From assembly GCA_015233015.1 (NCBI GenBank), contig JADFYO010000002.1, forward strand, positions 1 through 64,000: a stretch of DNA of 64,000 nucleotides, read 5' to 3'. The translations under genes and the position numbers were made by a program. The notes beneath the pieces are model-generated. The model searched no databases. It saw only the letters and a program-made list of their open reading frames with translations, and was not told the DNA's origin. The DNA is from Nitrospirota bacterium (lineage in GTDB: Bacteria > Nitrospirota > Thermodesulfovibrionia > Thermodesulfovibrionales > Magnetobacteriaceae). Within the stretch, counting starts at the first letter, position 1. Every line of letters starts with the position of its first letter. Below, one piece after another: positions 26,335-32,323 of this stretch.

Positions 26335-26595
26335 ATGGAGATTAAATATTCAGAAAAATCAGTAAAAGAATTAACAAGACTACTTAAGGGCAATAGGAAA
26401 AGTGCAGAGAACATAATTAAAACAATTGAGTCTTATGCTGAAGACCCATCAATAAATTATGATGTGAAGATACTTAAAGGGACATTAGGAGATTTTAAGA
26501 GACTTCGCATAAGAGATTATAGAATTATATTCGGGGATGACGGAACTACGATGCTTATTTATGAGATAAAACACAGAAAGGAGGCATATAGATGA
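26335..26595 (+). CDS. RelE/ParE-family toxin
   Basis: 86 aa. Compact basic protein with the RelE/ParE pattern: N-terminal helices (SEKSVKELTRLLKG), a central VKILKGTLGDFKRLRIRDYRI strand region, and C-terminal IYEIKHRKEAYR. The GDFKRLRI...YRIIF strands and the basic, Tyr-ending tail fit mRNA-cleaving RelE members. It lies first in the pair, before the antitoxin (reverse of the usual order), with an ATGA overlap. Confidence 0.88.
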   Translation: MEIKYSEKSVKELTRLLKGNRKSAENIIKTIESYAEDPSINYDVKILKGTLGDFKRLRIRDYRIIFGDDGTTMLIYEIKHRKEAYR

Positions 26596-26777
26596 TAAAA
26601 ACACAAGTAATAGAAGAAAACGGTAAGCCCTTTGCCGTAATAATGGACTACAATGAATACCTGAAATATAAAGAGATCGAAGAAGACAGAGATGACTATT
26701 ATTCTGCAGTTGAAACTAAGTTAAAGAACAAGAAGTGGGTAACTCATAAGGATTTAAAAAATAAGTTAGGTATATAG
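26592..26777 (+). CDS. Phd/YefM-like antitoxin
   Basis: 61 aa. The N-terminus (MIKTQVIEENGKPFAVIMDY) is like the short DNA-binding half of Phd/YefM-type antitoxins, followed by a charged helix (YKEIEEDRDDYYSAVETKL) and a basic tail that would wrap the toxin. It overlaps the toxin stop by 4 nt and is therefore co-made. It probably represses the pair's own promoter. Confidence 0.8.
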   Translation: MIKTQVIEENGKPFAVIMDYNEYLKYKEIEEDRDDYYSAVETKLKNKKWVTHKDLKNKLGI

Positions 26778-27693: not shown

Positions 27694-27722
27694 TTGACGT
27701 ATAATTCTTTAAGTGTTATTAT
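27694..27722 (+). promoter_or_regulatory. Sigma-70-type promoter of the split DPBB gene
   Basis: TTGACG at 27694-27699, 17-bp spacer, TATTAT at 27717-27722. It points to the ATG at 27788, with a strong AAAGGAGG ribosome site just before it. Confidence 0.7.
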
Positions 27723-27787
27723 AGTTTTTGAGCTGCTATGTTCATAGCAGAATATCTTGTTTTAATACCCACTTAAAGGAGGTAGTT

Positions 27788-28033
27788 ATGTCAGATGCTT
27801 GTTACATTCAAGACCAAAAGACGGGCAGATTTATGGGGAGAAGGCCGGGATGTTCGAACAGTAAGGGCGAGGCGTCAGAGAAGCTGCTTCAGAAGGTTGA
27901 AAAGGAAAAAGGCGTTATAGTGCGCAGGGTTGACGCTGCGGCAGCCGCAGGAACACTGCAACGTCAGGATAGCCCGGCAAAGGACAAGGCAGAGGAATTA
28001 GCGCGTGCGGTTAACAGCGGGAAGCTACCCTGA
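27788..28033 (+). CDS. N-terminal part of split DPBB protein
   Basis: 81 aa in this frame, ending at TGA 28031-28033. Start MSDACYIQDQKTGRFMGRRP with a GGAGG site 5 nt before it. The rest is helical and Ala/Glu/Lys-rich; no signal peptide. The end, AVNSGKLP-stop, reads straight on in the +1 frame as EALYELTKDSR if one base at CCC-TGA-G is skipped. I therefore think this and the next frame are one gene of about 369 codons, joined by programmed +1 frameshifting or broken by a one-base change. Two Cys (5 and 22); no known domain. Confidence 0.7.
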   Translation: MSDACYIQDQKTGRFMGRRPGCSNSKGEASEKLLQKVEKEKGVIVRRVDAAAAAGTLQRQDSPAKDKAEELARAVNSGKLP

Positions 28034-28898
28034 GGCGCTATACGAGTTGACAAAGGACAGCCGCTCATCGGGCCGTTACGCTAAGGCGATTGACCTTTTA
28101 GACCGGGACGCCAGTTATTGGAATGGCATAAGATCAAAAACCGGTTCAGACGAGGTTGATACGCTGATAGGCAGTTACGCCGGCGCACCAGTACCGGGCG
28201 CTGCAGACTTCGCGTTGAATCTCGCTGGCGGCAAGTCGGGGATGCAAAATGTGAGTGATGAGAAGCCTCTTGACTTACCATCAGGTGCAACTAAGAAGCA
28301 GGTTGAGAATGAACTTAAGGAGAGGCTTGATAATATCAAGAAAAAAGCCTATGATTTTAATAAGACGAATACCAAAGAAGGTAGATTTGATAAGGACAAG
28401 TTTACAAAGTACAGCGGCAATACGATGGAGACAAACGCTACTTATTATAATTTAGACTCGCCAACATCGAGCGGTGAGAAATACGATAAGTATGCAATTA
28501 CTGGAGCAATGCAGCCAATCGACGTGGGCGATCTTCGTGGAGGTAAATGTGAATACGCCAAGGTTACTAACACCGTGAATGGGAAGAGTGTTATAATCAA
28601 AATCAACGATAGGGGGCCTAAGACACCAATTGTGATCGGCAAAAAGCCTGATATAAATGGAAAGCTCGAGGATGTAAAACAGAAAATGCTGGATCCAACA
28701 AAAGCCCTTGACCTCTCGGTAGCAGCATATGCTGCAATTACGCATAAGGATGGTGCAGGTAAATTACATGTCAAGATTGAGTTCTTGTCTAAATCAGCAG
28801 GAGAGACTCAATATAATACTCAGAGGAGGAATACTGACCAAAGTGCTCTTAAGAAACATGTAGATGAAATAGCACCGTCTAACAAGAAAAAGATATAG
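28005..28898 (+). CDS. RlpA-like double-psi beta-barrel protein (C-terminal part)
   Basis: 297 codons if started at GTG 28005, but the likely natural entry is by frameshift at 28031. Residues about 1-130 are helical and unrecognised. Residues about 143-262 form a double-psi beta-barrel of the RlpA type: ATYYNLDSPTSSGEKYD, AKVTNTVNGKSVIIKINDRG (Asp in NDRGP retained), then LDLSVAAYAAI. RlpA enzymes cleave naked peptidoglycan glycan strands. The His that often follows the first strand (in AHRTLPFG) is not seen here; AITGAMQ stands there. No signal peptide or lipobox, unlike RlpA, so it would need another export route or act inside. Confidence 0.75.
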   Translation: MRLTAGSYPEALYELTKDSRSSGRYAKAIDLLDRDASYWNGIRSKTGSDEVDTLIGSYAGAPVPGAADFALNLAGGKSGMQNVSDEKPLDLPSGATKKQVENELKERLDNIKKKAYDFNKTNTKEGRFDKDKFTKYSGNTMETNATYYNLDSPTSSGEKYDKYAITGAMQPIDVGDLRGGKCEYAKVTNTVNGKSVIIKINDRGPKTPIVIGKKPDINGKLEDVKQKMLDPTKALDLSVAAYAAITHKDGAGKLHVKIEFLSKSAGETQYNTQRRNTDQSALKKHVDEIAPSNKKKI

Positions 28899-28922
28899 GC
28901 GTTTAGATAGCATTTTACTTAC

Positions 28923-28966
28923 AAAAATGAGAGGAGCATAGACACACTCCTCTCATTTTTTATTTT
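28923..28966 (+). terminator. Rho-independent terminator
   Basis: AATGAGAGGAG pairs with CTCCTCTCATT across a 10-nt loop, followed by a T-rich run (TTTTTTATTTT). It lies 25-60 nt past the DPBB stop and separates that gene from the exported paralogues. Confidence 0.92.
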
Positions 28967-28980
28967 ATTAAAAAAATTGC

Positions 28981-29010
28981 TTGACAACCGAATATACGTA
29001 TGTTTAACAT
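28981..29010 (+). promoter_or_regulatory. Promoter of the exported paralogue cluster
   Basis: TTGACA at 28981-28986, 18-bp spacer, TAACAT at 29005-29010. The predicted start site is about 29017, 35 nt before the ATG at 29052. A perfect 17-bp palindrome overlaps the -10 box, so a repressor is likely. Confidence 0.75.
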
Positions 29011-29013
29011 ACG
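28997..29013. promoter_or_regulatory. Palindromic operator over the -10 box
   Basis: CGTATGTTTAACATACG, arms of 7 bp around TTA, covers the -10 hexamer of the promoter at 28981-29010. Position and symmetry are those of a dimeric repressor site. No transcription-factor gene is adjacent. Confidence 0.65.
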
Positions 29014-29051
29014 GGAGATGAACAATTTAAGTCAACGCTGGAGTTAAACAT

Positions 29052-29519
29052 ATGTCATTGTGTTTGAGAGTAGCGGTTTTGTTGGTTGTCTCGTTGGCGG
29101 CGTTCTCACCGGAGGCTGGATTCGCGGCAAAATGTGAGGATAAGTTTTATATTATCTCATTGAAAGACTCATACCTTAATAAGAAATATAAAGTTAGGGC
29201 ATTCTTTGGATATCCAGGCAATTATACCTATGGCATACCCAGAATGCCGAAAGGCTGGTTCTACGACTTTCCTGATGAACATGGAACGGACTCATTAATA
29301 ATTGGCAAGGCTGACTCAGACAAAGAAGCCATTGATATTGAATTTTTTAAAGAATTTCTTACTATTATTATCAAGACAAAATATGATCTGAATAAAAAAC
29401 CAGATTTTAGCATGACACTGATTTGCAATAAACCAGATGGAACCCCTAAAATATTAGATTTACAAACCAAAGACTTTAAAATTAAAAGAATTCACAAATG
29501 CCTGAAGTGGTATTATTAA
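29052..29519 (+). CDS. Exported small protein, tandem paralogue 1
   Basis: 155 aa. Signal peptide (LRVAVLLVVSLAAFSPEAGFAA, cut before KCEDKF). The mature chain has a Cys near its start and another near its end (RIHKCL), which could pair. The pattern shared with the next two genes is: C..KFY.ISL, then a basic stretch, P..P.GW.YDF, ADSD...I....F, and F.IKRI..C. I do not recognise a known family. Expected location periplasm or outside. It opens a three-gene cluster under its own promoter. Confidence 0.8.
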   Translation: MSLCLRVAVLLVVSLAAFSPEAGFAAKCEDKFYIISLKDSYLNKKYKVRAFFGYPGNYTYGIPRMPKGWFYDFPDEHGTDSLIIGKADSDKEAIDIEFFKEFLTIIIKTKYDLNKKPDFSMTLICNKPDGTPKILDLQTKDFKIKRIHKCLKWYY

Positions 29520-29522
29520 TCA

Positions 29523-30062
29523 ATGACTGAAATGATTGTTTTATACCGTCTAACATTGAATATTAAAAGCAAACTGTCGGTTTTACAGATGGTGGCGGCG
29601 GCGCTTTTTATAATTAGCAGTGTTCCCGCCACCAGCGATGCGGCTGAATGCAAATACAGGTATTATTCTGTTTCGTTTGATCATCAAAATTATTACAACG
29701 ATCAAAGAATCAGAGCATTAGAGATGAGGATTTTCGATGCTTATATCTATGACCTTCCAAAATTACCATCGTCATGGGTGTATGAAATTGGTAATAATTA
29801 CGCCCCTCATGGGAGAGTTGCTTTTATGTACGCCACGGCAAAGTCAGACAATCATACCATCGAATATAAAGATTTAGAGAATTTTCTTATTCTGCGGCAG
29901 CCTAAAAATAAACCGGAAGAAGAGAAAATCTACATGCGATTGATTATATTATATATAGGTAAGAAAGGCGGTACCGGCATAGATATTGAAGAGGCCGATG
30001 ACGATGCGTTTACCGTTAAAAGGATTGACGAATGTTTACCGGAAAAGCCAAAGAAACATTAA
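29523..30062 (+). CDS. Exported small protein, tandem paralogue 2
   Basis: 179 aa. Longer N-terminal lead, hydrophobic core (VLQMVAAALFIISSV), probable cut near TSDAAEC. Mature part aligns by eye with paralogue 1: ECKYRYYSVSF, YIYDLPKLPSSWVYEI, ATAKSDNHTIEYKDLENFLI and FTVKRIDECL. Cys near both ends of the mature chain again. The gene begins 3 nt after paralogue 1 and overlaps paralogue 3 by 31 nt. An alternative internal start near residue 23 would still leave a hydrophobic stretch. Confidence 0.78.
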   Translation: MTEMIVLYRLTLNIKSKLSVLQMVAAALFIISSVPATSDAAECKYRYYSVSFDHQNYYNDQRIRALEMRIFDAYIYDLPKLPSSWVYEIGNNYAPHGRVAFMYATAKSDNHTIEYKDLENFLILRQPKNKPEEEKIYMRLIILYIGKKGGTGIDIEEADDDAFTVKRIDECLPEKPKKH

Positions 30063-30520
30063 TAATACTGATACTTGTATTGTTGCCCTTCTCAGCTGCC
30101 GGCGGGGATGAACTCTACTGCGTGTCATTAAAAAAAGATTTTAAGATTAGCGACAAAATTTATTATGGTATAACGGACGCTGATTTTGAAGTAACGAACG
30201 CTGAGATATACGGTATTCTTCACAAACCCATCGGATGGGTCATGTCCGTGTGGAAAGACATCGGCGGTGACGGAGGCTTTAGCGGTGGCGCTTTAGTGGG
30301 TGCCGGCAGCATAAGAAAATTGAGCTTTTTCTATGACGATTTCGTGATAATAAAGATAAAACAAGAGGTTAAATTAAACGATATCAAGTTAACGTTAAAA
30401 TTAGAAACAGATGAGGGACTTAGAGACGGCACGTATGATAAAGACTATAACGGCGATAAAACGTATAATTTTACAAATAAAGATTTTAACATTCGCAGAT
30501 GCAAAAGTAAGCAGTACTAA
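30032..30520 (+). CDS. Exported small protein, tandem paralogue 3
   Basis: 162 aa. Signal peptide LIILILVLLPFSAAGG. The mature chain starts DELYCVSLKK and ends FNIRRCKSKQY, keeping the two end cysteines and the FY/YC-x-SL start of its neighbours. The middle is more divergent (PIGWVMSVWKDIGG replaces the P..P.GW element; Gly-rich loop after it). It starts inside the 3' end of paralogue 2 and ends the cluster; a stretch of about 110 nt with no clear gene separates it from the convergent HEPN gene. Confidence 0.75.
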   Translation: MFTGKAKETLIILILVLLPFSAAGGDELYCVSLKKDFKISDKIYYGITDADFEVTNAEIYGILHKPIGWVMSVWKDIGGDGGFSGGALVGAGSIRKLSFFYDDFVIIKIKQEVKLNDIKLTLKLETDEGLRDGTYDKDYNGDKTYNFTNKDFNIRRCKSKQY

Positions 30521-30632
30521 GACAGCCACTCCGATCAGGGATAAAGATTGCCCAAACCCGCCGAAAGGTATAGACAACTATCACGAAGACCCGACAAGTG
30601 CCATAGACCTCTCGCCTGCGCCAAGTGCAAGT

Positions 30633-31282: not shown

Positions 31283-32323
31283 CTATCTAATAATCTGCGC
31301 TATTGTTCTTGTTCTGGTCCTACGCTGAGCGGCCTTAGTTGTTGTGCTTGTGGCGGCATCAACATATTCTCTAAACTCGCCTTTTAAATCTTTTATTTCG
31401 TGAGCATATGATAACGCCAACATCTGTTCGATAGTTTTCTTATCATATTTTATGTCGCCCATGGGTGAGGAAAAACCAACAGCATTCTCACCATCAGGAA
31501 TTCCATATTTAATATACGCAAAAGCACAAAAAAACGAATGTACAGCATATGTTTTCATAAGATAGGTGTTGCGTAGTTCGCTAAAGTTGAGGGCAAGAGT
31601 ATCGAAGAAAGATGTGATAATATCGCGGTAACGATCTTCGTTCTCAAAATCCTTTTCATATTTTTTATAAATATCATCCGTAGATTTTGATGACTTACTA
31701 ACTATTCCCTCATCAAGAACTATGGCAAGATCTGCAATAAATTCCACATCGGCCATTCTCATAATTTGCTTTGATGATAGTATCCCAAATTGCTCTATTA
31801 CAACACCTATTTTATCTGCAAGCTGGGCAGCAAACCATTTGAATTTGCCTTGATACTTTGCATGTCTCTGCTCCGCTGGGTTCAGAGGTGCAGTATAGGC
31901 ATTCATCCTCCGAAACATTTCAAGAATTTCATACTTTTCGGCTGACAGTATTTTATCAACTTGAATGATGACCGTACGGAAAGCGTCTTGAGTTTCATCA
32001 GGCAAGTCTTTAAAATAACAGCCGCTATATTTTTGCGATGCCTTTGATAGGCGCAACTCATTATTCAAAAAATCAATAATTGTATGTATACGTTGTTGCC
32101 CGTCCACGATTTCCCACATGGGCTTCTTTTTGGACTTATCATATATCTGGTGAAAATAAAGTTTTGGAAATGGATAGCCTTCCAAAATCGTATCAATAAA
32201 ATAGACTCTTGCAGTATCCGGCCATATTCCATCACTCCTCTGATAATCACGATTAATTTTGATATCTTTATCGAATCCCTCTACTATTTCAGAGATTGTA
32301 TGCTCTGAGCGACTTATTTGCAT
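31283..32323 (-). CDS. DUF262 (GmrSD N-terminal-like, ParB/Srx fold) protein
   Basis: 346 aa. The N-terminal DUF262 domain (about 8-220) has the INRDYQRSDGIW start, and DGQQRIHTIIDFL (Asp74-Arg78), the nucleotide-binding motif of this family. A helical C-terminal half follows (about 220-330) with a basic tail (TTTKAAQRRTRTRT). In GmrSD-type type IV restriction this domain hydrolyses nucleotide and controls a nuclease half; here the usual HNH (DUF1524) half is absent and a HEPN-like gene follows instead. Start ATG 32323, promoter at 32419-32447. Confidence 0.88.
   Translation of the reverse strand: MQISRSEHTISEIVEGFDKDIKINRDYQRSDGIWPDTARVYFIDTILEGYPFPKLYFHQIYDKSKKKPMWEIVDGQQRIHTIIDFLNNELRLSKASQKYSGCYFKDLPDETQDAFRTVIIQVDKILSAEKYEILEMFRRMNAYTAPLNPAEQRHAKYQGKFKWFAAQLADKIGVVIEQFGILSSKQIMRMADVEFIADLAIVLDEGIVSKSSKSTDDIYKKYEKDFENEDRYRDIITSFFDTLALNFSELRNTYLMKTYAVHSFFCAFAYIKYGIPDGENAVGFSSPMGDIKYDKKTIEQMLALSYAHEIKDLKGEFREYVDAATSTTTKAAQRRTRTRTIAQIIR

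Follow-up and report, generated by a model that had tools for sequence, protein, structure and literature searches.

The window analysed here, a 64,000-nucleotide stretch of a Nitrospirota genome (positions 1 to 64,000 of contig JADFYO010000002.1; contig C72 of a draft assembly of 3.78 Mb, 99% complete), carries at positions 27788-30520 a gene for a protein with an RlpA-like double-psi beta-barrel (DPBB), followed by three genes for small, mutually related exported proteins (A, B and C, together the trio). We consider it likely that this cassette belongs, as one of several copies, to a lineage-specific polymorphic toxin-immunity system in which the DPBB protein is the predicted toxin and the trio its predicted immunity. 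The window copy is a mutated copy of the cassette, with the toxin gene frame-shifted and the immunity genes intact. The closest named records holding the gene family of the cassette were Candidatus Magnetominusculus sp. LBB02 and a Nitrospirae metagenome-assembled genome, so the host appears to be a magnetotactic-type Nitrospirota, of Candidatus Magnetominusculus or close to that genus.

Six DPBB toxin genes were present in the host genome, on contigs C72, C86, C56, C96, C70 and C125, and complete A-B-C trios lay behind five of the six, the C125 cassette being cut at the contig end. The C56 cassette carried two trios, and contig C130 began with a trio; joining C125 and C130 as one cassette was dropped, as no overlap between the contigs was found. 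Genomes G001, G004 and G006 also held the same cassette, each toxin there having one to three trios behind it. The layout of a toxin gene with three paralogues, described in an original prediction made on this DNA, is real and is that of a cassette present in multiple copies. The arrangement is not due to chance, because it recurs in several cassettes of the host genome and in sister genomes (all genomes compared were drafts or metagenome assemblies, which can hide systems and produce false frameshifts). Homologues of the trio occurring widely without a DPBB neighbour had been named beforehand as a finding that would speak against the prediction, and this was not the case: within a set of 199 relatives the trio was present in 5 genomes, all of this genus (the host and four sister genomes), with none among the remaining genomes of the set, and nearly all trio loci readable far enough upstream were preceded by a DPBB toxin gene. 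The exceptions were one intact orphan trio (G004, contig C33) and arrays cut by contig ends. Where the toxin gene was broken (C72 and copies in G004), the genes of the trio behind it were mostly intact. A single-protein scan of genome contigs with the window DPBB protein returned no relative, and viral contigs gave no match to the N-terminal domain or the trio and only generic RlpA-like barrels to the DPBB, the same being seen by tblastn in phages and plasmids.

The region 27788-28898 had been taken for a single DPBB gene, which proved not to be intact but to lie in two frames. Translation from the start at 27788, with the tag SDACYIQDQKTGRFMGRRPGC, ran for 81 codons to a stop at 28033 (27788-28033, +) and covers the first part of the N-terminal domain, with the remainder of that domain and the C-terminal DPBB toxin domain in a second open reading frame (28005-28898, +; PF03330 match at approximately 28428-28775). 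The early stop arises because 5 nucleotides after 28022 are missing (deletion site 28022-28023, +) that are present in the five other copies of the same genome, as seen in a DNA alignment with those copies. Programmed frameshifting of the toxin genes was rejected, since the window copy lacks the nucleotides that the other five copies have; the deletion could in principle be an assembly error of the draft genome. Intact toxin paralogues were 370-411 amino acids long and, as had been stated for the window protein, were without a signal peptide (hydropathy and sequences). Just past the trio lay a remnant of a second DPBB toxin C-terminus (30535-30623, +; 88% DNA identity over 68 nucleotides to the C96 toxin gene), which is an addition to the earlier description.

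The toxin was found to have two parts: a DPBB C-terminus that has diverged, and a homogenised N-terminal domain of approximately 160 amino acids (the N-domain), in which a tag of approximately 25 amino acids is joined to a helical part. Compared with copy C96, the host-genome copies were 89-96% identical in the N-domain and 36-64% identical in the C-terminus. The dN/dS values were 0.08-0.18 in the N-domain and 0.33-0.39 in the toxin C-terminus; most trio genes gave 0.21-0.39, and a single B pair reached 0.82. Across 12 cassettes, partly of common history, identity of the toxin C-terminus correlated with identity of the first trio (Mantel r 0.85, p<=5e-5), as it did in the host genome alone (r 0.85, p 0.008), with correlations for the individual members of 0.62 (A), 0.72 (B) and 0.84 (C). 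N-domain identity was uncorrelated with the C-terminus (r 0.08) and with the first trio (r -0.02). Each of the extra (second or third) trios tested was nearer to another cassette's first trio than to the first one in its own cassette. Cognate immunity with an orphan-immunity array would look like this combination of co-variation and extra trios.

Proteins A (29052-29519, +), B (29523-30062, +; the true start may be further downstream) and C (30032-30520, +) are encoded by adjacent open reading frames and are, as originally proposed, small, mutually related and exported, being paralogues with strongly hydrophobic N-termini and no visible lipobox (export was assessed by hydropathy, with no dedicated predictor). 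All three are predicted immunity proteins, C being the member of the trio best correlated with toxin type. The conservation of cysteines at both ends, also noted earlier, was borne out. In family A the terminal pair was kept or lost jointly (both present in 14 of the 19 scorable sequences, both absent in 5, mixed in 0; Fisher p 8.6e-5), and in families B and C both cysteines were nearly always kept. The predicted structure of A was a beta-sandwich (mean predicted local distance difference test score (pLDDT) 84.7). Assignment of C to DUF5020 (Pfam E 0.026) was below the cut-off and was rejected.

The tag (CYIKDPKTGKFMGRKPGC type) was also carried by at least four toxin-like classes besides the DPBB toxins, with immunity-like genes behind them. 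A tag profile of 35 positions identified ten tagged genes in the host genome and many in G004 and G006; its matches beyond this family were marginal (E above 0.001), and the tag and N-domain had no match to any profile searched. Class II comprised a BECR-like nuclease candidate (the BECR/PBECR3 assignment was weak, with a best E of 0.051 and 3/9 members matching, and was not adopted), followed by one to three predicted cytosolic paralogues of approximately 200 amino acids. Class III had the entire N-domain in common with the DPBB toxins, joined to another C-terminus and followed by an 830-amino-acid protein, and class IV genes had up to four exported paralogues behind them. Class V C-termini were weakly like serum amyloid A (E 6e-4 with a PDB profile and, below the cut-off, E 3e-4 in Pfam; loci L116-L119, L137 and L138), and N-terminally hydrophobic proteins were encoded behind them. 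We read the predicted location of the immunity proteins as fitting that of the target for the DPBB toxins and class II. A second type of conserved 5' region, with two ATGCGAAT repeats, was seen ahead of class II and III toxin genes (L056-L066, L069 and L073 for the BECR-like class, and also L064 and L065). In G008, a genome of the same family, open reading frames of 84 and 72 amino acids with a tag-like start DNYIQDPKTGKFNGS each preceded a membrane protein of approximately 390 amino acids (L121 at 3843, -; L122 at 3469, +).

The proposal that a terminator separates toxin and trio and that each unit has its own promoter agreed with the conservation of the intergenic regions. The toxin gene was preceded by a sigma-70-like promoter-like block common to the toxin genes (27694-27722, +; TTGACG-17 nt-TATTAT), conserved in five host-genome copies and visible in most cassettes. 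Between toxin and trio lay a Rho-independent terminator (28923-28964, +; predicted by folding as a 14-bp stem, 10-nucleotide loop and T run), followed by a separate promoter-like block (28981-29010, +; TTGACA-18 nt-TAACAT). An equivalent hairpin was found in 10/10 toxin-trio intergenic regions inspected, and the second block was conserved in the same number. Because this strong terminator and second conserved promoter-like block precede it, the trio is probably transcribed independently of the toxin. The toxin 5' region also held an 18-nucleotide palindrome or stem-loop, CTGCTATGTTCATAGCAG (27733-27750, +), which recurred at other DPBB toxin genes, lying 47-62 nucleotides before the ATG in 11/12 inspected. 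The 6 copies in the host genome coincided exactly with the six DPBB cassettes, and a role as a regulon operator was dropped, the palindrome occurring there at DPBB cassettes only. At 1490-1600 of L177 (G004, contig C48) a lone palindrome with a ribosome-binding region had no toxin gene after it, an apparent deletion scar.

The assignment of an RlpA-like barrel to the toxin held at both sequence and model level. The window open reading frame matched PF03330 (E 1.2e-8; 35.6 bits, cut-off 28.8), and an AlphaFold model of the C86 paralogue (pLDDT 79.4, predicted template-modelling score 0.55) showed a hairpin at the N-terminus together with a helical region and a DPBB, and this barrel matched the solved DPBB protein 4avr (template-modelling (TM) score 0.86 over the target, E 1.4e-6). 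Assignment as DNA_pol3_a_NII (Pfam E 0.023) was below the cut-off and was rejected. The fold and the Asp of the DxGP motif are common to the toxin and the RlpA/DPBB lytic transglycosylases (PF03330, TIGR00413); this Asp ([ND/ED]DxGP) was kept in 12/14 sequences, both exceptions being in broken genes.

We infer toxicity, a peptidoglycan target, direct binding and the delivery route as parts of the following mechanism. The constant N-domain, with its approximately 25-residue tag and helical part, would direct delivery, and the variable C-terminal barrel would act on the peptidoglycan of a rival cell. Because it has no signal peptide, the toxin should be harmless in the cytoplasm of the producer and active only once delivered. 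Proteins A, B and C would reach the periplasm by Sec, adopt beta-sandwich folds closed by disulfides and, singly or as a complex, block incoming kin toxins by binding their barrels. The trio would be expressed from its own promoter behind a terminator. Extra trios, which fit other toxin types, would act as an immunity array.

The organisation resembles the polymorphic toxin systems described by Zhang et al. 2012 (PMC3482391), which have the same constant trafficking N-terminus, variable toxin C-terminus and downstream immunity, and share orphan toxin tails and poly-immunity loci with the cassettes here. Sequence-level features by which polymorphic toxins are recognised were found in the present family: a constant N-terminal region with variable C-termini, orphan immunity genes and displaced toxin C-termini, and, by co-variation, downstream immunity paired with C-terminal type. 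Lineage-specific N-terminal domains such as MafB-N and Microscilla-N have been described (PMC3482391). The cassettes differ from those systems in having a tag and N-domain without a profile match and in an immunity that is a repeated unit of three exported paralogues, and none of the terms DPBB, double-psi and RlpA appears in the text of PMC3482391.

Several points weigh against a toxin-immunity system. No known delivery system was found for the toxin, and neither by sequence nor by fold does the trio significantly match a known immunity family: searches of plasmids, PADLOC, Pfam, PHROGs, NCBIfam and PDB gave no significant match, and Foldseek against PDB gave just weak Ig-like neighbours, all with E above 0.001 (best E 6.7e-3). 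The family had been called unfamiliar at the outset, and the profile search then proposed yielded no known immunity or inhibitor family. As the toxin C-terminus adjoins the trio, co-inheritance accounts for part of their correlation; the N-domain, as close by and yet decoupled from the trio, is a stronger point than the correlation itself. The catalytic geometry of the barrel was kept in part. The RlpA of P. aeruginosa has a conserved active-site set of Glu, His and Asp, and the full set was not kept in the toxin sequences: the Asp remains, the usual His is Met (AAM/GAM) at every readable site, and the Glu varies. Judged from the fold, it is plausible that the DPBB acts by binding or cleaving peptidoglycan, but an RlpA-type reaction is not established. 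The effector-immunity reading of the original prediction stands in part, favoured by the genus-restricted trio beside the DPBB, the co-variation of C-terminus and first trio and the immunity-like genes behind other tagged classes, and weakened by the broken toxin gene, the partly kept geometry and the lack of a delivery system.

That these are instead lineage-specific, RlpA-like housekeeping proteins of cell-wall remodelling with periplasmic partners, and not toxins, is very improbable, even though the DPBB fold is that of RlpA, a family of normal septal enzymes. Unlike RlpA, no intact copy has a signal peptide, nor does the toxin have a lipobox, and it falls far under the RlpA family cut-off (39.4 bits vs 82.15). 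Copy number varies and some toxins are broken beside an intact trio, C-terminus and trio diversify together with a homogenised N-domain, and the identical type of tag stands on unrelated C-termini. Secretion-system genes had been suggested as neighbours to look for, and none of the markers searched was detected in the genus: the type VI secretion system (T6SS) protein VipB (PF05943), the type IV secretion system (T4SS) proteins VirB4 (PF03135 type) and VirB10 (PF03743) and the contractile sheath (PF04984; extracellular contractile injection systems or contractile tails) were absent in all 7 genomes representing it, 3/7 of those in the T6SS search being at least 90% complete, and control genomes were positive. 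T6SS peptidoglycan effectors lack a signal peptide and are paired with exported periplasmic immunity, as is the toxin here, with the difference that this genus is without VipB. The absence of secretion markers and the separately transcribed immunity would suit a bacteriocin-like release, in which the toxin leaves by lysis of the producer and the N-domain serves uptake into kin cells without a secretion machine. We regard this as doubtful: the cassettes held no visible lysis gene, and since the tag sits on many toxins that differ in target, a single uptake route would have to serve them all.

Equally doubtful is a role as phage-derived particle cargo, in which the N-domain would load the toxin into a virion- or tail-like particle next to the portal, in the way proposed for MuF toxins, while the barrel would open the rival wall at entry. 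A class V toxin gene lay directly after an intact SU10-like terminase-portal pair in three species (L123 2188-6668, G006 contig C54; L137 7262-11688, G005 contig C163; L138 8296-11784, G002 contig C277), the portals being 85-88% identical, and N-domain residues 90-152 matched part of each of two large polyvalent phage proteins from other Nitrospirota (per-genome E 1.2e-6 and 3.4e-5). The three loci continued with N-terminally hydrophobic genes and no capsid genes, and their chromosomal flanks differed; in a fourth species a degenerate locus (L125 1-7000, G004 contig C69) held three portal fragments among class V toxin and immunity-like genes. MuF toxin genes likewise lie directly downstream of portal genes (PMC5576092), and both MuF phage toxins and Bxa (PMC11699363), the latter with two immunity proteins, are short, lack a signal peptide and reuse their N-domain on many C-termini. 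The tagged toxins differ in that no Pfam match to MuF (PF04233/PF06152) was found in the toxin, in class III, IV and V representatives or in nine BECR-like members. The window genome has no SU10-type portal, and its DPBB cassettes sit among chromosomal genes, outside prophages and without phage-gene neighbours. The complete SU10-like prophages read carried no tag, no tagged gene being present in the structural modules of G006, G003 and G002 (L136, L139 and L140), and the viral contig scans with the N-domain were empty. The terminase-portal link to delivery is a lead, not proof. Judged by the tests run, the protein is not a MuF toxin, a T6SS effector or an RlpA enzyme.

The novelty of this probable lineage-specific polymorphic toxin-immunity system lies in the tag and N-domain, in an immunity unit of three paralogues and in the lack of any known delivery machine. 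Magnetotactic Nitrospirota, for which no interbacterial toxins were described in the literature searched, would gain a polymorphic toxin family marked by a distinct N-terminal tag. A tag common to several toxin classes has the character of an address label and makes the search for the delivery system concrete, and the terminase-portal-toxin elements give a testable lead from toxin delivery to phage packaging parts. The repeating unit of three exported paralogues is an unusual immunity design, several immunity proteins being rarely aimed at one toxin (PMC13392607). A bolder proposal, which we hold to be speculative and rather unlikely, is that the CYIKDPKTGKFMGRKPGC-type tag addresses toxins of at least five classes to an undescribed delivery route, possibly derived from phage terminase-portal parts, by which a single genus of magnetotactic Nitrospirota sends them into neighbours without T6SS, T4SS or contractile particles, and that every DPBB toxin is held in check by a periplasmic complex of three immunity paralogues.

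The neighbouring genes in the window included, just upstream of the cassette (26335-26777), a ParE toxin and a Phd/RelB-like antitoxin gene and, downstream (31283-32323, -), a protein with a GmrSD N-terminal domain (PF03235, E 6e-21).

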